DNA from: Halovivax limisalsi
GTDB taxonomy: Archaea > Halobacteriota > Halobacteria > Halobacteriales > Natrialbaceae
Direction of reading: 5' to 3'
DNA: 64,000 bases
NCBI RefSeq assembly: GCF_023093535.1
Contig: NZ_CP095757.1
Span: 2,976,001 to 3,040,000 of the forward strand
Shown: positions 22,811 to 40,500 of the stretch, piece by piece
Position numbering within the stretch: the first letter of the stretch is position 1
Layout: every line of letters starts with the position of its first letter
Program-made: the position numbers and the translations under genes
Notes under the pieces: model-generated
Seen by the model: only the letters and a program-made list of their open reading frames with translations
Databases searched by the model: none
What the model was told of the DNA's origin: nothing

Positions 22811-24331
22811 ATGCGCGTCCTGGTCGTCCTCGGGCACCCCCGGACCGACAGCCTCTGCGGGGATCTGGCTCGCTCGTACCGCGACGGCGTCCGCGCGGCC
22901 GGCCACGACGTCGAGACGCTCTTCCTCGCCGACCTCGAGTTCGACCCGCACGTGCGGCGGGAACGGCCGGCCGACCAGCCGCTGGAACCCGACCTGACGG
23001 AGGCCGCGTCGCTGATCCGGTGGGCCGATCACCTCGCGTTCGTCTACCCCAACTGGTGGGGGACGATGCCGGCCCTGCTGAAGGGCTTTTTCGATCGCGT
23101 GTTCCGCTCTGGATTCGCCTTCGATTTTTACGAAGAGGGCGAGGGCGCGGGCCATCGCGAACTCCTCGACGGGAGAACGGCGGACCTGCTCGTGACGATG
23201 GACGTCCCGCCGTGGGTGTTTCGGTTGATCCAGCGCGAACCGGGAACCAACGCGGTCGAGCGGGCCACGCTCGGATTTGCGGGCGTCCGGACGACGGAGA
23301 CGGCCTACTTCGGCTCCGTCGAGCGTTCGTCGGTCGAGGAGCGCCGGGCGTGGCTGGATCGCGCCGAACGGCTGGGTCGTCGCCTCGAAACGGGTCCCGA
23401 CTCGCGAGTCGACCGGGTCAAACGAGCCGTCGGGACGGCCATCGGCGCGCTCCGCCTGCAATTCTACCCGATGGCCTGGATCGCGTACGCGATCGGTGCG
23501 CTGGCGGCCGCGGAATCGACGTCCGTCCTCGCCTCGAACCCGTTCTGGCTCGGCTTCGGATTCATCTTCTTCCTCGAGGTCGCGACCGTGCTGAGCAACG
23601 AGTACGCCGATTACGAGACCGATCGCCGGAACACCTTCGCCGGCCCGTTCACCGGCGGCTCTCGCGTCCTGGTCGAGGATCGGCTGGATTTTCGAACCGT
23701 GGGAATCGGGGCCGTCGGCGCCGGGCTGGCCGCAGCCGCGTTCGGTCTCGCCACACCCCTCCTGGGCCCAGGTCCGCCACCGGCGGTCACCGCCATCGCG
23801 GGCGGGCTAGCCGTACTGGCGCTGGGATATACCCTCCCGCCGCTCGAGCTGTCCTACCGGACGCTCGGCGAACTCACCGTCGCCGTCACGCACGGTCCCG
23901 GCGTGCTCCTCCTCGGATACGTCGGCCTCGGCGGGTCCGTTCAGGATCCGCTTCCATGGCTCCTGGGGCTTCCACTCCTGCTATCGATTCTGCCCTCGAT
24001 AACGCTGGCCGGGATCCCCGACAGGGCCGCCGATCGGGCCGCGGGCAAAACCACGATCGCCGTCAGATTCGGGTTCGACGGGGCCGCTATCGTCGCGTTC
24101 GCGACGACGATTCTGGCCGCAATTGCCGCCCTCTCCGCGTTCGGAGGCACCGGTCTCTCGGTACCCGTACCCCTGCTCGTCGGCGTGGTAGGGCACGCCG
24201 CCCTCCTTACGCGGGTCGTTCACCGACGGGTCCGCGGCCTGGAGTGTCCGCGACGCATCGACGGGGCGATGATCGCGGCGCTCGCCTATATCGGCTGGTT
24301 CGAAGCCTTCGCGCTGCTGGCGGTCCTGTGA
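22811..24331 (+). CDS. Fusion of NAD(P)H:quinone-oxidoreductase-like flavodoxin fold with UbiA prenyltransferase
   Basis: A 506-residue single reading frame with two domains. Residues about 1-195 match the MdaB/NQO flavodoxin-fold family: VLGHPRTDSLCG is the FMN/FAD phosphate loop and FVYPNWWGTMPALLKGFFD is the family motif. Residues about 215-505 are a UbiA membrane prenyltransferase. It has several hydrophobic helices, a first Asp motif VLSNEYADYETDRRN near 260-272 and a second GIPDRAADRAAGKTT near 400. UbiA enzymes attach polyprenyl chains to aromatic rings in quinone or lipid synthesis. The flavodoxin part could reduce the quinone product or precursor. The gene follows the DUF6293 regulator by 79 bp. 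Confidence 0.9.
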   Translation: MRVLVVLGHPRTDSLCGDLARSYRDGVRAAGHDVETLFLADLEFDPHVRRERPADQPLEPDLTEAASLIRWADHLAFVYPNWWGTMPALLKGFFDRVFRSGFAFDFYEEGEGAGHRELLDGRTADLLVTMDVPPWVFRLIQREPGTNAVERATLGFAGVRTTETAYFGSVERSSVEERRAWLDRAERLGRRLETGPDSRVDRVKRAVGTAIGALRLQFYPMAWIAYAIGALAAAESTSVLASNPFWLGFGFIFFLEVATVLSNEYADYETDRRNTFAGPFTGGSRVLVEDRLDFRTVGIGAVGAGLAAAAFGLATPLLGPGPPPAVTAIAGGLAVLALGYTLPPLELSYRTLGELTVAVTHGPGVLLLGYVGLGGSVQDPLPWLLGLPLLLSILPSITLAGIPDRAADRAAGKTTIAVRFGFDGAAIVAFATTILAAIAALSAFGGTGLSVPVPLLVGVVGHAALLTRVVHRRVRGLECPRRIDGAMIAALAYIGWFEAFALLAVL

Positions 24332-24363: not shown

Positions 24364-27141
24364 TTACTCGGCGCGGAACCGCGTCAGGAGCCGTTCGCGA
24401 ACGACCAGCAGGCTCGGCAACACGAGCAAACAGGACAGGAAGGCGAGGATGATCGCCAGCCCCGTCACGATCCCGAAGCGACGAAGGGGCGGCGCAAGCG
24501 CGAGCGCCAGGACGCCGAACCCGGCGGCCGTCGTCGCCGCGCTGCCAAGCAGCGCACCGCCCGTCCCCGTTACGGTCGCCATCAAGGCGTTCTCGACGTC
24601 GACCGGTGCCGCCCCGCCGTTCGCCGCTCGCTTCGTCGAGGTTCCTGCGGATCCTCGCTTCTCGCGGCTCCCGTTGGTCGCCGCTCGGTTTGCCGAGGTT
24701 TCGGTGAAACCTCGCTTCTCGCGGCTCCCGTTGGTCGCCGCTCGGTTTGCCGAGGTTTCGGTGAAACCTCGCTTCTCACTCACGAACCGTTCTCCCAGGT
24801 GGATGCTGTAGTCGACCCCCAGCCCGATCGCCAGGCTCGTGATGACGGCCGTCTCGCTGTTGAACGGCAGCTCCAGCAGCGCCATCATGCCGATGAGGCA
24901 GGCGAGCGCGATCACGACCGGTGCCATCGTGATCGGGCCGAGCGAGGGCGCGCCGTGGCGGAGCCAGTACAGCGCCGTCAGGAAGACGAGGATGACGACC
25001 AGGGTTACGGCCAGCGCCTGGACGAGCGTCTCCAGGAGCGCGTCCTGGACGACCGCGGTCTGAACGGGGCCCCCGGTCGGCGTCGCCCGCACGTCCGCCC
25101 CGGCTTCGATCTCGTCGGCGAGGGCCTCCACGTCCGCCGCGACGTCCTGCGCGCTCGCGTCGCCGCGGACGCTCACGACGAGGCGGAGCGACTCGTACTC
25201 GCCGTCGGTGCGCTCGATCACCGTTCCGGCCCGCTCGGCGTCGGCCCCGTACAGGGCGTCGTACAGTCCTGCGATGTCCTCGTCCGGCACGGCGTCGCCG
25301 GTCGTCTCGCGTTCGTCGAGCGCGACGGCCACGTCGTCGTTCGCGGCCGCGAGATCGCGGGCGACCGAGAGCGGTCCCTCGACGGCGGCGGTTCCGTCCG
25401 GCGCCGCGTCGATCGTCTCCCACTCGCCACCGGCGGTTCTCGCGCCCTCGATCGCCGGAAGGACTTCGGGGTCGGTCACACCCCCATCGCCGCCATCCGG
25501 TCGTATCAGAATCTCCGCCTGCGACCCCTCGCCGCCCGCCCGGAAGTTCTCGCCGAGGTACGTCGCGTCGTCGGCGATCGTGTACGTTCCCGCAGCCAGC
25601 GGGCCGGGGAGGGACTTGGCCCAGTCGGGTGCATCGCGAGGGAGGAAGTCGGTCCGGTTGAACTCCGTGTCGATGGTCGTGGCGCCGTAGGCGCCGACCG
25701 ACGCGAGGACGACCGTCACGATCACGACCGCGATCGGCGCCCGTCGGGCGAGGGCGACGCCGGCAGCGAGGGCCCGGTTCACGGGCCCTGGCGTCGTCCC
25801 GAACGCGGCCTTGGCCCGGTTGCGCTCGAATCGATTCTCGAGGATGCCGTCGACCTCGGCCTTCAGCGCCGGGATCAACACGCCGAACGCGACGAGCGCG
25901 GCGAAGATGCCGCCGGCCGAGAGGATCGCGAAGTCGCGGATCGCCGGGAGCGGGCTGACCACGTTCGAGAGGAACCCGACGCCGGTCGAAAACGTCGCCG
26001 CCGCGAGCGCGAGGATCACGCCGCCGAGCCCGACCGCCATTCCGGTCCTGATTCCGACACCCTCGCCGCCCGCGTGCGTGTCCGCGTCACCCTCGTCGTC
26101 GACTGACTTCGAATCGCCTGCGCGGGCTTCGCGATAGCGCATCACCACGTGCAGCGAGTAGTCGATCGAGAGCCCGATCAGGAGGAACGGAACGGCGATC
26201 AGCAACTGGCTCGAGGGGATCGCGAGCCACCCCATCAGGCCCGCCAACCAGGCCATTACGACCGCGATGCCGGCGATCCCGAGGAGGACGTCGACGACGT
26301 CGCGGTACGTCACGCCGAGGATGAACAGGACCAGCACAAATGCGACGGGCGTGATGATCGCGAAACTGTCGCCGACCGCGTTCGAGGAGGCCTCGTCACT
26401 GATCCCCTGCCCGAAGACGAAGCCGTCGTCGAATCGCTCGTCGAACAGCGATTCGAGTTCGACCTGCGCCTCGGAGACGGTCCGCGGTTCCGCATCTTCC
26501 CCCGCAGCATCTTCCTGAAACACGAGGGTGAGTCGCGATTCCGCGTCGGTGGTCCCCGGCTCGTAGTCGCTCGGCAGGAACGCGGTGGGGTCGGTTCCGG
26601 CAGGGGTGCCCTCGGAGTCGGGACCCGATTCTCCGCTCAGTACGTCCGTCAGGAGCGCTTCGACCTCGTCGGCGGGACGGGATTCGAGCGCATCGATCTG
26701 TTCGTCGAGCGTCGGTCGGCCGGTCTCCGGCGGTCCGTCACTCTCCGCGGCGCGGTCCTCGAAGACCGCGGCGGTCGCGACGACGTTCTCGATGCCCTGG
26801 AACCCGGGTTCGGCCAGCGTCCCGTCGATCGATGCCGTGGACCGGGCGTCGGCCTGCAAGTACAGCCCGTCGAGCAGCGAGTCCTTCGTGAGGACGTCGC
26901 CACCATCGTCGCGGACGACGATCTGGGCGACGATCCGGTCGTCCGTCTCGTAGCGGTCCTCGACGTAGTCTCCGGCCCGCGTCTCGGGCGCGTCGACGTC
27001 GAACTCGCCGATGCCGGCGCTTCCGGCGTCCCCGACGGCAGCGCCGGCCGCGACGACGGCCGTGAGTACCACCGCGGCGACGACGACCGCGCGGCTGTGA
27101 CCGACGAGCCACGCGGCGTAGCGGTCGGCCAGATCGGTCAC
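24364..27141 (-). CDS. RND/MMPL-type membrane transporter
   Basis: A 925-residue exporter with two repeated halves. Each half has one N-terminal helix, a large external domain and five further helices. Sterol-sensing-like segments are visible at SIDYSLHVVMRYREA (about 330) and GVDYSIHLGERFVSE (about 780). Acidic external loops fit a halophile. Related MMPL proteins export lipids, hydrophobic compounds or, in HpnN, hopanoids. Residues about 787-846 hold an in-frame insertion of three 19-residue tandem repeats that breaks the loop after the second DYSIH helix. It is divergent from the next gene, with a palindrome between them. Confidence 0.88.
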   Translation of the reverse strand: MTDLADRYAAWLVGHSRAVVVAAVVLTAVVAAGAAVGDAGSAGIGEFDVDAPETRAGDYVEDRYETDDRIVAQIVVRDDGGDVLTKDSLLDGLYLQADARSTASIDGTLAEPGFQGIENVVATAAVFEDRAAESDGPPETGRPTLDEQIDALESRPADEVEALLTDVLSGESGPDSEGTPAGTDPTAFLPSDYEPGTTDAESRLTLVFQEDAAGEDAEPRTVSEAQVELESLFDERFDDGFVFGQGISDEASSNAVGDSFAIITPVAFVLVLFILGVTYRDVVDVLLGIAGIAVVMAWLAGLMGWLAIPSSQLLIAVPFLLIGLSIDYSLHVVMRYREARAGDSKSVDDEGDADTHAGGEGVGIRTGMAVGLGGVILALAAATFSTGVGFLSNVVSPLPAIRDFAILSAGGIFAALVAFGVLIPALKAEVDGILENRFERNRAKAAFGTTPGPVNRALAAGVALARRAPIAVVIVTVVLASVGAYGATTIDTEFNRTDFLPRDAPDWAKSLPGPLAAGTYTIADDATYLGENFRAGGEGSQAEILIRPDGGDGGVTDPEVLPAIEGARTAGGEWETIDAAPDGTAAVEGPLSVARDLAAANDDVAVALDERETTGDAVPDEDIAGLYDALYGADAERAGTVIERTDGEYESLRLVVSVRGDASAQDVAADVEALADEIEAGADVRATPTGGPVQTAVVQDALLETLVQALAVTLVVILVFLTALYWLRHGAPSLGPITMAPVVIALACLIGMMALLELPFNSETAVITSLAIGLGVDYSIHLGERFVSEKRGFTETSANRAATNGSREKRGFTETSANRAATNGSREKRGSAGTSTKRAANGGAAPVDVENALMATVTGTGGALLGSAATTAAGFGVLALALAPPLRRFGIVTGLAIILAFLSCLLVLPSLLVVRERLLTRFRAE
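24604..24774. repeat. Three 57-bp in-frame tandem repeats inside the RND transporter gene
   Basis: Units at 24661-24717 and 24718-24774 are identical; 24604-24660 is a diverged third copy. Each of the two exact units contains CGAGGTTTC-GGT-GAAACCTCG, a perfect 9-bp hairpin with a 3-base loop. The third copy keeps the hairpin with one mismatch. The encoded 19-residue unit reads REKRGFTETSANRAATNGS. Length is a multiple of three, so the transporter frame survives. Confidence 0.92.
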
Positions 27142-28780: not shown

Positions 28781-31700
28781 ATGAGCGGCGATGCCGAGCG
28801 CCAGCGAGGCATCGACGAAGCGAGCGGTGAAACCGCGAGCAACGAGGCCGACCAGCGGGAAGCCTCGGACAGAGCGAACGGAGAGCGGCGGCGATCCGCG
28901 ACCGGTGCCGCGGAAACCGACGAGACGGCCGCCGGGGACGAGACCGAGTCGACTGACCGGACGCCGTCCATGGAGGGAACCTACGAACCGGACGACATCG
29001 AATCCCACTGGCAGCGCCGGTGGGTCGAGACGGACACGTACGCCTACGAGGGCGACCCGGAGCAGGACCCGAACACCGTCTATTCCATCGACACGCCACC
29101 GCCGACGGTCTCGGGAAGCCTCCACATGGGCCACCTCTACGGCCACACGCTGCAGGACTTCGCGGCCCGCTTCCAGCGGATGGCCGACGGCGACGTCCTC
29201 TTCCCGTTCGGCTACGACGACAACGGTATCGCGAGCGAGCGCCTGACGGAGGACGAACTCGACATCCGCCACCAGGACTACGAGCGCCAGGAGTTCCAGG
29301 ATCTCTGCCGCGAAGTCTGTCGGGAGTACGAGGCCGAGTTCACCGAGAAGATGCAGGGCCTGGGCTGCTCGATCGACTGGAATCGAACCTACAAGACGAT
29401 CGAGCCGCGGGTCCAGCGCATCTCGCAGCTGTCATTTCTCGATCTCTACGAGAAGGGGCGGGAGTACCGCAAGAAGGCGCCCGCGATCTGGTGTCCCGAG
29501 TGCGAGACGGCGATCTCGCAGGTCGAGGTCGAGGACGACGAGCGCGGCTCGCACTTCAACGACATCGCGTTCGGTATTACCAGCGACGGCACCGACCGCG
29601 AGGAGTTCGTCATCTCCACGACCCGGCCGGAACTGCTCCCGGCCTGCGTCGCCGTCTTCGTCCACCCCGACGATGACGAGAATCAGGATCTCGTCGGCGA
29701 GACGGCCCGGGTCCCCATCTTCGGTCACGAGGTCCCGATCATCGAAGACGACCGCGTCGACGTGGAGAAGGGCAGCGGGATCGTCATGTGCTGTACGTTC
29801 GGCGACCAGAACGACATCGAGTGGTACCAGGCCCACGACCTCCCGCTGCGCGTCGCCATCGACGAGACCGCGACGATGACCGACCTCGCCGGGGAGTACG
29901 AGGGCCTCTCGACCGAGGAGGCCCGCGAGGCAATCGTCGAGGACCTGGAGGACGAGGGCTACCTGCGAGACCGCTGGGAGATCACCCACGCAGTCGGGGT
30001 CCACGAGCGCTGTGACACGCCCGTCGAGTTCCGCGTCTCCAAGCAGTGGTACGTCGAGATCCTCGACCACAAGGAGGAGTACCTGGAAGCGGGCCGGGAG
30101 ATGGACTGGTACCCCGAGAAGATGTTCACCCGCTACAAGCACTGGATCGAGGGGCTGGAGTGGGACTGGCTCATCTCCCGCCAGCGCGACTCGGGGATTC
30201 CATTCCCGGTCTGGTACTGCGCGGACTGCGACGAACCGGTCGTGGCCGACAAGGCGGACCTGCCGGTCGATCCGCTCTCGGACGACCCGCCGGTCGATAG
30301 CTGTCCCGCGTGCGGCCACGAGGCGTTCGAACCCGAGGCCGACGTCTTCGACACGTGGGCGACCTCGTCGCTGACGCCGCTGATCAACGCCGGCTGGGAC
30401 TGGGACGGCGAGGTCGCAAGTAGCGCGGAACGCAGTTCCGCGGACCGTTCGAGCGGGCACGGCCCGCGAGAAGACGAAGTGAGCGACCTCGGAGCGGAGA
30501 GCGGGGAGCGTCAGCGACCCGCGAACGGCGAGGGCGCTCGCGCCCTGGAAACGGTGAGCGGGGAGCGTCAACGACCCGCGAACGGCGAGGACGCCGGTGA
30601 CGGTGGCGAAGGTGGGTTCACCATGGACCACCCGGAGCTGTACCCGTTCGACCTCCGCCCGCAGGGCCACGACATCATCTCGTTCTGGCTGTTCCACACG
30701 GTCATCAAGTGCTACGAGCACACCGGCGAGGTGCCCTTCGACGCGACGCTGATCAACGGCCACGTTCTGGACGAGAACCGCGAGAAGATGTCCAAATCGC
30801 GGGGGAACATCGTCGCGCCCGACGAGGTCGTCGCGGAGTACCCCGTCGACGCCATCCGGTTCTGGGCGGCCAGCGCCGCGGTCGGCGACGACTTCCCGTA
30901 CCAGGAGCAGGATCTGCGCGCCGGCGAGAAGCTCCTGCGCAAGCTCTGGAACGCCTCGAAACTCGTCGACAGCCTCGCGCCCGTCGATCCCGACGAGCCC
31001 GACGAGCTCGCGGCGATCGACCGCTGGCTGCTGGCGGAACTCGACGACGCGGTCGCCGACCTCACCGCGCACTTCGAGGCCCACGAGTACGCGAAGGCCC
31101 GCGACCGCCTGCGGACGTTCTTCTGGAACACCTTCTGCGACGACTACCTCGAGATCGCGAAGGAGCGATCCGACGACCCCTCGACCGCCTACGCGCTCCG
31201 GACCGCCCACCGCACCTTCCTCGAACTCTGGGCGCCGATCCTGCCCCACGTCACCGAGGAGATCTGGCAGGCCAGTTACGCCGCTGAGGGCGCCGATATC
31301 GACGCGTCGAGCATCCACCGCCGCGAGTGGCCCGAGCCGCGGGGCTACGACGCCGACCTCGCGGCCGGCGAGACCGCGATGGCCGTCATCTCGGCGCTGC
31401 GGCGCTACAAGAGCGAGCGCCAGCTCCCGCTGAACAGCGACCTCGATCGCGTCGCCGTCTACGGCGACGTCGACGGGTTCGAAGACGCCATCGCGAACGT
31501 CATGCACGTCGCGGACCTCGAGAGCCTCGAATCCGAACCGGAGATCACCACGGCGATCGACTCGATCGACCTCGACTACGCGACGGTCGGGCCCGAGTAC
31601 GGCTCGAAAGTCGGCGAGATCGACGCCGCAATCGACGCCGGCGAGTACGACCTGACCGACGACGGCTCGCTCGCCGTCGCCGGCGAGACCCTCGATAGCG

Positions 31701-34549: not shown

Positions 34550-37500
34550 TTACTGCCGGAGTCTCACCGCGACGAGAGTGAGTGCGAACAGAGCCGCGAC
34601 GAGTCCGAAGCCGGGAATGGAATCGTCGGTTCCGGATTCCGGTGGCTCAGTGGCGTCGTCATCGGTGCTGATTTCGAGCGATTCCGTCGTCGTTTCGTCG
34701 TGGACGGAGACAGTCTGTGAGACGCTCTCTCGGTCCACGTCCGTTGGAACCGGCCCGGTTAGCTCGACCGTTTCACTCGTTCCAGATTCGAGTTCGACAG
34801 CACTCGTTGCAACGGTGAATCCGTCGATCTCGTACGCGATCGTCTCAGTTATAACCCAACTTCCATCGTTGGTGACTGTCGCCGTCGCTGTCACGTTCTC
34901 GTCGGGTTCGGCCGTGGATGGCATCGTCACGTCATCGAGAACGACGGATGGCTTGTTCTCCCTGACCTGAACCGATGCGGTAGCAGTATCCTCGCCCGCC
35001 TCGGTAGCGATCTCGATCGTCTCTCCTGCCGAGTTCGCCGGAACCGAGACGGTCGTCGAAACGGTGGCCGTCTCGCCGGCATCGAGAGTTACCGATTCGG
35101 TAGCAGCCTCATCGCCCGCGACATCGATCGATACCGTTTCGGAACCCGATTCACCGCCGACGTTTTCGACGGTCACGTCGATCCCGATTGAGTCGCCGGT
35201 ATCGACCTCGTCGGGAACCGATAGCTCCGTGATCGCGAACTCGGCCGGGTCGGCGGGTTCGGTCGGCGGCGGCAGAACGATGCCTCCGCCGCCCCCGCCG
35301 CCGGATTCGGCCTCAAGTTCGACGGTCGTCGTATCGTGGTCGTCGGCCGTAGCGACGACGAGGTCGTGAGTTCCGGCGTCGAGATTTGCCGTACCGAGCG
35401 TCACCGTGACCGATTGGGTTGTGCCGGCTGCGAGATCGAGCGTCCGATTCGCGGTCACGTCGCCGCCCAGAGCGACGTCGACCGACGCGTTCGACCGATT
35501 CGCCCCGTCGTTTGCGACGGTGATGGTCGCGTTGAGCGCATTGCCGACCTCGACTGGTGCGTTCGTCGCCTCGATCGAGACCGGGAACCTCGTCGGTTTC
35601 TCGACCGTGACGGGCAGGGATGCTGTCTCGTTCGAGGTCGAGACGGACGCAGTCAGGTTGCCCGCGGTATCGGCGGTCCAGTTGAACTGCACCGAGGTCC
35701 GTGCGCCGCCATCGAGCGAGATCGTGCGGGTATCGACCACTTCATCGCCGATTTCGAGGGCGACGGATTGGTTGCCAGCCACGGTCCCGCCGTTTTCGAT
35801 CGTCGCATTGACGAGTAGCGTCTCGCCCGTCAGGACCGGACTGTTCGACTCCAGGGCGGGAATCTCGAACGTCGGTGGTCGAGTGACGGTGACGGTCGTC
35901 TGTACGTCGTCGTCGCTCGTGGCGAGGGTGAGAGTGTTGTCACCGGCTTCGTCGTCGGTTGTTTCCCAGGAGAGGCTCACGGATTCCGTCTCGTTCGGTG
36001 CCAGCTCTCCAGTTTGGACCTCGTCGACGACCGTCCCGTTAGCGAGCAGCGTCACGGTGTCGCTACCCGCTTCGTTGCCGATGTTTTCGATCGTCGCATC
36101 GGCGCTCACCGTCTCGCCAGCGTCGACGCGCTCCGGAACCTCGCCGAGTTCGATCGCGAACACGCTTTCGGTTGTCACCTCGACGGAAACGGAGACGTTC
36201 GCAGAATCGGTGGTGCCGTCGCCATCGGTGACGGTGAGTGTCGCGTCGTACGTGCCCGCGGCCTCGTACGTGTGAGATGCGGTGGGATCGGCGGTTTCGG
36301 TCGTCGTTCCATCGCCGAAGTCCCACTGGTAGGTCGCGATCGAGCCGACGCTGTCGCTGGCATCGAACGTGACAGGTTCGCCAACGGTCGGGGTTTCCGG
36401 CGTGGCCGTCAGGACAGCAGAAACCGTTCCGTCGGTTCCGATGTACTCGATATCGGTTACCCTGCCGTCGTGGATGTCGTGGTCGGTCGACGGCGTCCCG
36501 TCGGCCGGATCGACGGTCAGATACCGCCCGTCGGACAGTCCCGCGATCAGCACGCCGTCGTCAGCGTCCATTTCGAGTTGGGTGACCGACTGCCCGACGT
36601 CGTTCGTCCAGTCGATCGATCCGTTCTCGGCGTCGAGCGCGGAGATCGACTGCCCACCGCCAGTATAGATCGTTTCGCCATCGGAAGCGACGAACACATC
36701 CTCGATGTTCGCACCGAGCGTTTCGTTCCACGATTCCGTCCCCGTGGTCGAGTCGATGGCGGTGACGGTTCCGTCGGTCGTCGACACGTACACGACCGCA
36801 CTATCCGGACTGACGTCGATCGCCGTCGTCGATGCATCGAGGGTCAGATCCCACGTGATCGAGCCGTCCGCCGCGTCGTGAGCGATCACGTCCCCGCCTT
36901 GCTGGCCCGCGTAGACGGTCGACCCGTCCGGCGAGACGGCCACGGCGAGGCCGTCATCCCAGTCCGTGTTCTTCGTCCAGCGGACATTTCCGGTCTCGAC
37001 GTCGATCGCCTTCAGCGGGACGTCGTCTTCGTGGCTGGCGTAGAGCGTCTCCCCGTCGGACGCCAGCGCCAGATCGGTCACGTCCACGCTGGCGCGCGAG
37101 AGTTCCCCTAGCTGAACGCCCGAATCCGCGTCGATCGCGCGGACCGTTCCGTCGTCGCCACCCGAGAAGACGACGGCTCCGTTCGGCCCCGGTTCGACGG
37201 CTCGAACCGACGACGTGTGCCCGTTGAACCGCCACCGGGTGAGGGGACCGGTGGAGTGATTTCCGGCGCCGAAGGCGCGGACGCTGTTGTCCGCACTGGC
37301 CGAGTAAAGCGACTCGGTCTGGGCAGCCTGAATTCCTGTAATTGTGAGATCCGTAGCTATCGATTCGTCCGCTTCGACCGTGACGTCTGTCGTCGACGCC
37401 TGCTGCCAGGCTGTCGCCTCCAGCGTGTACGTACCAGTATCGTGCGTGATCGTGTACCCGCCCGTGTCGTTCGTCGTCGTGGAGGCGACGGGCGCCTCGT

Positions 37501-40500
37501 CGGTGGTCTCGTAGAGGAAGACGCGTGCGTCCTCGACGGGGTCGCCCGAGCCGTCCGTGACGGTCCCCGCAACGCTGCCCGTTTCGGTTGGCGTCGGCTC
37601 GTCGACGTAGGTGAGGGCAGCGATAGTATTGCTGTGGACGGGAAGCGGCACGGCCGGACTGCCGTCAGTCGGATCGAGTACCTGAACATCGCCGTCGTTG
37701 AGGCCGACGACGAGCGTCTCGCGGTCGGCATCGACCGTCAGGCCGCGGACGCCGGTGGCGGTGCCCGTCTGCCAGTGGCCGACGCCGGCGTGCGCGTCGA
37801 CGGCGTGAACCTGACTCGCTCCGCCGGCGAAGACGAGATGGCCGTCCGGACCCATCTCGACGTTGCTGACGCCGCTGTTGAAGCCGCCGTAGGCCCAGCG
37901 CGTCGTACCGGTCTGGGCGTCGATCGCCCGGACGGTCTGATCCTGACTGTTCGTGTAGACGGTGTGGCCGTCAGGGTGGACGACGATATCGGTCACGTCG
38001 CCACGGTGATCGATCGACCACTCGATCGAGCCGTCCGCGGCGTCGTGGGCGAGCACCTCGCCGCCCTGCTGGCCCGCGTAAACGGTCGACCCGTCCGGCG
38101 AGACGGCCACGGCGAGGCCGTCATCCCAGTCCGTGTTCTTCGTCCAGCGGACATTTCCGGTCTCGACGTCGATCGCCTTCAGCGGGACGTCGTTTTCGTG
38201 GCTGGCGTAGAGCGTCTCCCCGTCGGACGCCAGCGCCAGATCGGTCACGTCCACGCTGGCGCGCGAGAGTTCCCCTAGCTGAACGCCCGATTCCGCATCG
38301 ATGGCGCGGACGGTTCCGTCGTCGCCACCCGAAAAGACCGTCTCGTCGTCCGGCCCCGCCGCGACGGCTCGAACCGACGACGAATGGCCGTCGAACTGCC
38401 AGCGTTCGGGTAGGCTCGACTCCGACGTGCTGGCGTCCGAGGCGACGACCGCATTATCGGTGCCGACGGTGTAGAGGAGGTCGGACTTCGCGTCCGCGAT
38501 CCCATCGATGGTCAGGTTTGCGGTCACCGATCCATCTGCCTCGACCGTGAGGTCTGTCGTCGACGCCTGCTGCCAGGCGGTCGCCTCCAGCGTGTACGTA
38601 CCAGTGTCGTGGGTGATCGCGTACGAGCCGTCGGCGTCCGTCGTCGTGGAGGCGACGGGAGCCTCGTCGGTGGTCTCGTAGAGGAAGACCCGCGCGTCTT
38701 CGACGGGGTCGCCCGAGCCGTCCGTGACAGTCCCCGCAACGCTGCCCGTTTCGGTTGGCGTCGGTTCGTCGACGTAGGTGAGGGCAGCGATAGTGTTGCT
38801 GTGGACGGGGAGCGACACGGCCGGACTGCCGTCAGTTGGATCGAATGCCTGAACATCGCCGTCGTTGAGGCCGACGACGAGCGTCTCGCGGTCGGCATCG
38901 ACCGTCAGGCCGCGGACGCCGGTCGCGGTGCCCGTCTGCCAGTGGCCGACGCCGGCGTGCGCGTCGACGGCGTGAATCTGGCTACCGCCGCCGGCGAAGA
39001 CGAGATGACCCTCCGGGCCCATCTCGACGTTGCTGACGCCGGTGTCGAAGCCGCCGTAGGCCCAGCGCGTCGTTCCGGTCTGGGCGTCGATCGCCCGCAC
39101 GGTCTGGTCGGTGCTGGTCGTATAGACCGTGTGGCCGTCGGGGTGGACGACGATATCGGTCACGTCGTTGCGGTGCTGAATCGACCACTCGATCGAGCCG
39201 TCCGCGGCGTCGTGGGCGAGCACGTCCCCGCCCTGCTGGCCCGCGTAGACGGTCGACCCGTCCGGCGAGACGGCCACGGCGAGGCCGTCATCCCAGTCCG
39301 TGTTCTTCGTCCAGCGGACATTTCCGGTCTCGACGTCGATAGCCCTCAACGGGACGTCGTCTTCGTGGCTGGCGTAGAGCGTCTCTCCGTCGGACGCCAG
39401 CGCCAGATCGGTCACGTCCTTGCCCGCGCGGGAGAGTTCGGCGCGCTGAACGCCCGAATCCGCGTCGATCGCGCGGACTGTTCCGTCGTCGCCACCCGAG
39501 AAGACCGTCTCGTCGTCCGGCCCCGCCGCGACGGCTCGAACCGACGACGAATGCCCGTCGAACTGCCAGCGTTCGGGCAGGCTCGAATCCAGAGAACTGG
39601 CGTCCGAGGCGACGACCGCGTTATCGGTACCGACGGTATAGAGGAGGTCGGATGTGGCGTCCGCGATCCCATCGACGGTCAGGTTTGCGGTCACCGATAC
39701 GTCCGCTTCGAGCGTGACGTCGGTCGTCGCTTCCTGCTGCCAGGCGGTCGCTTCGAGCGTGTACGTGCCAGTATCGTGCGTAATCGAGTACGTTCCCGTT
39801 GCGTCCGTCGTCGTCGAGGCGACTGGTGCCTCGTCGGTGGTCTCGTAGAGGAAGACCCGCGCGTCTTCGACGGGGTCGCCCGAGCCGTCCGTGACGGTTC
39901 CCTCGACGGTGCCGGTCGTCGCTGACGTGGCTTCGCCGACGTAGGCACTATCTCTGATTCCCTTTATGTGTGGTGTCTGCAGTGCTTCGACACTACCCGA
40001 GGCTGGATCGAGGGACGTCACCTCTCCACTCGATTGGGCGACCCGAAGCGTCGTCCGATCGGGATCGACGACCAGATCGGTCACGCTGTTCGAGACGCCG
40101 GTTTGCCAGTGACCGACACCCGAATGCGCGTCGATGGCGTGAACGCCACCGGACCCACCAGCGAAGAGGAGATGCCCGTCCGGCCCGATCTCCACGCTGT
40201 TGACGCCGGCATCGAGGCCGCCGTAGGCCCATCGAGTGGCCCCGGTCTGCGCGTCGATCGCTCGGACGGTCTGGTCCTGGCTCGCGGTGTAGACGGTGTG
40301 ACCGTCGGGATGAACGACGATAGCAGAGACATCGTTTCGATGGGTAACTGACCATTCGACCGTGCCATCGGCGGCGTCGTGTGCCGTGAGATCGCCGCCT
40401 TGCTGACCAACGTAGACGGTGGCGTCGTCGGGCGAGAGAGACACGGACATATCGTCGTCCCAGTCCTGGTTGACGCTCCAGTCGACGGTTCCGTTGTCGA

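Follow-up and report, generated by a model that had tools for sequence, protein, structure and literature searches.

A single open reading frame of the haloarchaeon Halovivax limisalsi encodes what, judged from its sequence, is a genuine fusion of two domains, an NQO-type quinone reductase and a UbiA-family prenyltransferase, with both active sites kept. The same fusion gene is found in dozens of halophilic and alkaliphilic microbes, among them bacteria, and it is distinct from the gene that encodes MenA in the same genome. We put at roughly one in two the probability that the protein works as a bifunctional, membrane-bound quinone-reducing prenyltransferase, accessory and separate from MenA, which would act on free quinone head groups. 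Both domains belong to known families and the novelty is their fusion; domain databases may list this architecture, and no description of an NQO-UbiA fusion was found in the literature covered, a partial coverage with most subscription journals outside it.

Domains, predicted fold and active sites

The gene lies in the window, i.e. the whole stretch of 64,000 nucleotides that was analyzed (contig NZ_CP095757.1, positions 2,976,001 to 3,040,000). Its frame starts with ATG and runs over 506 codons without internal stop or frameshift (Table 1). Flavodoxin_2 (PF02525) is recognized by Pfam at residues 1-178 (118 bits for a cut-off of 27, E 5e-34, profile positions 1-187 of 198) and UbiA (PF01040) at residues 224-471 (79.4 bits for a cut-off of 34.2, E 3e-22). 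The AlphaFold2 model, obtained with 34 fusion sequences as input (mean pLDDT 83, pTM 0.72), predicts a flavodoxin domain in front, two helices (residues 175-194 and 199-214) with a very short link between them, and a helical UbiA bundle behind. Re-alignment of this model to the PDB matched the UbiA half to ApUbiA (4od4) and human UBIAD1 (8djk), with a Z of 23.9 each and an rmsd of 2.9 over 263-265 residues, and the NQO half to NQO2, the M. marburgensis NQO, and S. mutans Smu.1420, with a Z of about 20. Besides, phmmer linked the NQO half to 3lcm (E 1.5e-21), and human UBIAD1 was the sole, remote match of the UbiA-half profile among the PDB sequences (E 4e-4). While NQO1/NQO2, MdaB, and the M. 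marburgensis NQO share the fold (Z about 18-20) and the signature motif of the NQO half, they are soluble stand-alone proteins, whereas this domain forms the front of a membrane enzyme in the fusion.

Table 1. Features of the fusion gene, with positions in the window
Feature	Position	Strand	Basis or conservation
Whole gene, NQO-type quinone reductase-UbiA prenyltransferase fusion, 506 aa	22811..24331	+	ATG frame, Pfam, AlphaFold2
NQO/MdaB-like flavodoxin-fold domain, residues 1-195	22811..23395	+	Flavodoxin_2; structural matches; phmmer 3lcm
GHPRxxS, residues 8-14, expected flavin-phosphate loop	22832..22852	+	G8, H9, P10, R11, S14 invariant in 34 fusions
NQO signature FVYPNWWGTMPALLKGFFDRVF, residues 77-98	23039..23104	+	Y79, P80, N81, W82, W83, K91, G92, F93, D95, R96 invariant in 34 fusions
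UbiA membrane prenyltransferase domain with short lead-in, residues 196-506 (UbiA proper from ~205)	23396..24328	+	Pfam UbiA; ApUbiA and UBIAD1 fold
R215	23453..23455	+	AfUbiA R22 by alignment; invariant in 34 fusions and in 18/18 UbiA-family rows of A2
Asp motif 1, N263-E-Y-A-D267-Y-E-T-D271	23597..23623	+	N263, D267, D271 invariant in 34 fusions
GPFTGGSRVLV loop, subgroup signature after motif 1	23642..23674	+	(Nearly) invariant in fusions
YTxPPxxxSYRTLGE, residues 340-354	23828..23872	+	Counterpart of MenA YTxGxxxxGYxGLG(D/E) and AfUbiA Y139/S140
Asp motif 2, D404-R-A-A-D408, and K413	24020..24049	+	D404, D408, K413 invariant in 34 fusions

Conservation of the active sites was read from a gap-poor alignment of 34 haloarchaeal fusions (77% mean column identity) and from a second alignment, A2, of 18 UbiA-family rows. 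In the NQO half, the GHPRxxS motif is expected to be the flavin-phosphate loop, a role in flavin binding that is suggested by the family, and the signature aligns with the motif of NQO2 and MdaB, including the pattern P-x-W/Y-W...PA.LKG..DRV. In the UbiA half, the two Asp motifs of the superfamily (NDxxDxxxD and DxxxD) are found as NExxDxxxD and DxxxD, the second letter of motif 1 being the single departure from the expected active-site residues: at position 264, Glu is invariant in the 34 haloarchaeal copies, while the bacterial copy from Roseinatronobacter has the usual Asp. The two Asp of motif 2 are invariant in every row of A2 and Y340-T341 in the 34 fusions; according to A2, the GPFTGGSRVLV loop is partly common to two MenA-like relatives (L128 and L176). 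In AfUbiA, the binding of Mg2+ and diphosphate and the catalytic cluster involve R22, N68, Y139, D198, and D202, with R22 contacting the diphosphate (PMC4106721). All five align in A2 with invariant residues of the fused UbiA half.

The sequence-only reading, which had described both domains as complete and in one frame, with an NQO/MdaB motif near residue 70-90 and both UbiA Asp motifs, is thereby confirmed by the single frame of 506 residues, the two Pfam domains above their cut-offs, the signature at residues 77-98, and the motifs N263-E-x-x-D267-x-x-x-D271 and D404-x-x-x-D408. It had also named two observations that would speak against it, namely a lack of the UbiA activity residues and a fusion confined to this genome with a frameshift at the junction. 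On alignment, the residues are present; the frame is intact and the fusion is widespread.

Distribution, maintenance and origin of the fusion

Close matches to the UbiA half occur in 33 of the 392 genomes searched in the order. The 30 loci that were fetched all carry the NQO domain in frame, and the three others have open frames of 506-521 aa, long enough for the fusion. In addition, the strong matches to the NQO domain among 292 genomes of the class all lie within open frames of more than 500 aa (22/22), at the same loci as the UbiA matches, and neither half was found apart from its partner as a close match in the class (292 and 392 genomes searched). Two bacteria carry the fusion as well. 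Carriers include Halovivax, Natrinema, Natronococcus, Natronoglomus, Natronorubrum, Saliphagus, and Halococcaceae MAGs; in Halovivax itself, only two of the five genomes have the fusion, which therefore is an accessory gene. The dN/dS values over 10 pairs range from 0.07 to 0.18 in the NQO half and from 0.18 to 0.35 in the UbiA half, showing that both are under purifying selection and thus maintained. The intact frame, the dozens of fused genomes, and the low dN/dS rule out a fusion due to chance, frameshift, or assembly accident. Viral contigs were searched as well, and no relative was confirmed in them.

The first of the two bacterial copies, a full fusion with 52-54% identity, comes from a Pseudomonadota genome (G834, locus L132/L162) and has transposase genes directly downstream, of the IS3 type as read from their sequence. 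The second, WP_277806833.1, is plasmid-borne in Roseinatronobacter sp. S2, which comes from an alkaline spring; it is ~49% identical over residues 1-421, and is annotated as NAD(P)H-dependent oxidoreductase only; genes for a P450, a catalase, and a superoxide dismutase lie nearby. In G834, UbiA and CyoE are present, no MenB was detected over the cut-off, and MqnA/D are absent, indicating that the fusion can exist without a recognizable menaquinone pathway; since the completeness of this assembly is not stated, the absence of Men and Mqn is not proof.

The fused copies group as a single clade for the NQO half (support 99/95) as well as for the UbiA half (100/97), the latter clade also holding a short UbiA-only sequence from a Deltaproteobacteria MAG (L015:7977-8513). 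As both trees give one fused clade, the data fit a single fusion event followed by horizontal transfer, in either direction. L015 is short and carries an internal deletion, and is therefore probably a decaying remnant of the fusion clade rather than an unfused ancestor.

The nearest unfused relatives of the NQO half are proteobacterial. They include NAD(P)H oxidoreductases (L133-L143) which are ~43-51% identical to it and occupy the nearest branch of the tree, but which stand alone. No UbiA gene was found within ~1.5 kb of flank beside these Pseudomonadota genes, so that unfused NQO and UbiA partners side by side were rejected as a counterpart of the fusion. In Microbulbifer rhizosphaerae, another stand-alone protein (L014:7944-8564) with 48% identity to the NQO half was seen among genes for AMP-ligases, aminotransferases, and an MFS exporter, in what looks like a biosynthetic cluster.

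In the window, the fusion gene is preceded by an HFX_2341-family regulator and followed by a convergent MMPL-type transporter, neighbors which are absent from most other carriers, where a helicase, ABC transporters, a stress protein, or a cupin are found instead. No conserved neighbors of the haloarchaeal fusion were detected. Since its neighbors are not common to most carriers, the gene is apparently transcribed on its own, its surroundings give no substrate, and a function deduced from an operon is ruled out.

Elsewhere in the window, in-frame tandem repeats with a period of 57 nt occur at 24613-24783 and 30483-30594 in two unrelated genes: the MMPL/RND transporter gene has three copies and a valyl-tRNA synthetase-like ORF has two. 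The equal unit length in both suggests a common kind of insertion. A unit of 1167 nt is furthermore repeated three times in tandem at 36851-39898 (93-95% identical in the best part), probably reflecting a gene or domain that was triplicated recently.

Relation to MenA and to other UbiA-family proteins

The source genome has genes for eight or more UbiA-family proteins. One of them, L090, is a canonical MenA (369 bits on a MenA model for a cut-off of 264), flanked by MenB and by a MenC-like gene, as read from its sequence, at a distance of 0.9 Mb from the fusion. MenA and the fusion share a broad branch of the UbiA tree and the YT...GY.GLG(D/E) region, but the fused UbiA half is only 20% identical to the MenA of the genome, lies outside the men locus, is joined to an NQO domain, and fails the NCBIfam MenA models (best score 24.7 bits for a cut-off of 277). 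None of the NCBIfam equivalog models reached its cut-off with the fused UbiA half. A MenA is expected to be the sole DHNA prenyltransferase and to be located with the men genes, neither of which holds for the fusion. In the light of the model cut-offs and of a separate L090 beside menB/menC, the fusion is ruled out as the MenA of this organism.

In the UbiA tree, the fusion clade (100/97) sits with MenA-like rows on a weakly resolved branch (90/91, drawn open), apart from DGGGPS, CtaB, 4HB-UbiA, and the lycopene elongase (split 97/86), the last of which is a long branch of less sure placement. The phylogeny thus points to an extra paralogue within the wider MenA/UBIAD1 branch. As for the other paralogues of the genome, L089 is DGGGPS, L091 belongs to the PRK12875 family and is taken by us to be the lycopene elongase, and L093 and L094 are two more UbiA-like proteins with no NCBIfam equivalog over cut-off.

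Two further, separate fusions between heme A synthase and heme O synthase, CtaA-CtaB, were noticed in this genome (L087, 1447-2880, minus strand; L088, 664-2313, plus strand), CtaA being read from the sequence. They resemble the NQO-UbiA fusion in having a partner domain in front of a UbiA-family enzyme, but serve heme A/heme O synthesis and have an unrelated N-terminal domain. With these two, the genome holds at least three UbiA-family fusions.

The sequence-only reading had proposed that the fusion may represent a step of its own in the haloarchaeal synthesis of menaquinone or other prenyl lipids. As far as menaquinone is concerned, this is not borne out: a canonical MenA stands beside MenB and MenC, the fusion is patchy in its genus and without conserved neighbors, and it has bacterial carriers, one of which (G834) shows no MenB over cut-off and no MqnA/D. 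What holds of the proposal is the fusion with its active sites, together with a coupling of reduction and prenylation as its most economical explanation.

Possible functions

UbiA enzymes are known to alkylate electron-rich phenols or hydroquinones. Among the closest parallels is human UBIAD1, with which the fusion shares the UbiA fold, Asp motif 2, and the LG(D/E) motif, at ~16% identity by structural alignment; UBIAD1, however, has no reductase domain and needs an outside reductant in vitro. No product was obtained with UBIAD1 without DTT, from which its authors concluded that menadione reduction precedes prenylation (PMC4398444), and reduced menadione is drawn as the UBIAD1 acceptor in the AfUbiA paper (PMC4106721). 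Since the UBIAD1 acceptor must be reduced and the fused UbiA half belongs to the MenA/UBIAD1 branch, the NQO half would most simply supply the reduction of the acceptor, making quinone reduction coupled to prenylation the most economical reading of the fusion.

According to this mechanism, the flavodoxin-fold domain would transfer two electrons from NAD(P)H to a small quinone, thereby generating the hydroquinone, i.e. the nucleophilic form required by an aromatic UbiA enzyme. The UbiA domain would then join a polyprenyl group to this hydroquinone, with the Mg2+-polyprenyl diphosphate presumably held by the two Asp motifs, and the resulting prenylquinol would enter the membrane quinone pool. 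We infer the catalysis, the use of flavin and NAD(P)H, the order of the steps, and the substrate; any direct hand-off between the halves, the channelling suggested by the sequence-only reading, would be a further step beyond these. Most plausibly, the enzyme would capture free naphtho- or benzoquinone head groups, salvage them, or render them harmless, by a chemistry akin to that of human UBIAD1 on reduced menadione, with one chain supplying the reduction that the human enzyme gets from outside. A link to the methylated menaquinones known from alkaliphilic haloarchaea is conceivable.

Alternatively, the prenylated product, or else unrelated quinones, may be what the NQO half reduces. If the product is its target, the UbiA half would make a prenylated quinone, as a second route to demethylmenaquinone or to a menaquinone variant, which the NQO half would then hold in the reduced state, either for methylation or as an antioxidant. 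MenG-type methylation acts on the hydroquinone, which would suit this scheme, as would the placement of the UbiA half among MenA-like rows of the tree. The genome, however, already has a complete MenA locus, the fusion also occurs in a bacterium with neither MenB over cut-off nor MqnA/D, and the neighborhood of the fusion showed no conserved methyltransferase gene, making this scheme unlikely. Less probable still, the UbiA half may prenylate a non-quinone acceptor, such as another phenol or a lipid, while the reductase half feeds electrons into another step of a specialized prenyl-lipid pathway. Such a role would agree with the patchy, accessory distribution, with the P450 near the Roseinatronobacter copy, and with the close NQO-domain relative in the Microbulbifer cluster, but the motif and the structural neighbors of the NQO half are those of quinone reductases and no pathway genes recur around the haloarchaeal copies. 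Finally, a stress-defence quinone reductase, anchored to the membrane by a UbiA half that also docks the quinone and whose prenyl transfer is secondary or lost, appears the least probable, for even though the NQO half is the better conserved by dN/dS and catalase and superoxide dismutase genes lie near the Roseinatronobacter copy, a mere anchor would lose the Mg2+/diphosphate residues N263, D267, D271, D404, D408, and R215, all of which are invariant.

Returning to the coupling of quinone reduction with prenylation, a wider and distinctly more tentative proposal is that a horizontally mobile enzyme would, on its own, turn free quinone head groups into prenylquinols, thereby providing salt- and alkali-loving archaea and bacteria with a prenylquinone route outside Men, Mqn, and Ubi. 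With quinone-type acceptors, UbiA enzymes depend on the reduced form, for which UBIAD1 relies on electrons from outside the enzyme; a natural reductase-prenyltransferase chain would offer a ready system in which the coupling of the two reactions can be tested. If the proposed function is true, the fusion would indicate that quinones are salvaged, or made by a variant pathway, independently of Men and Ubi, and would provide a compact means of producing vitamin K-like compounds.
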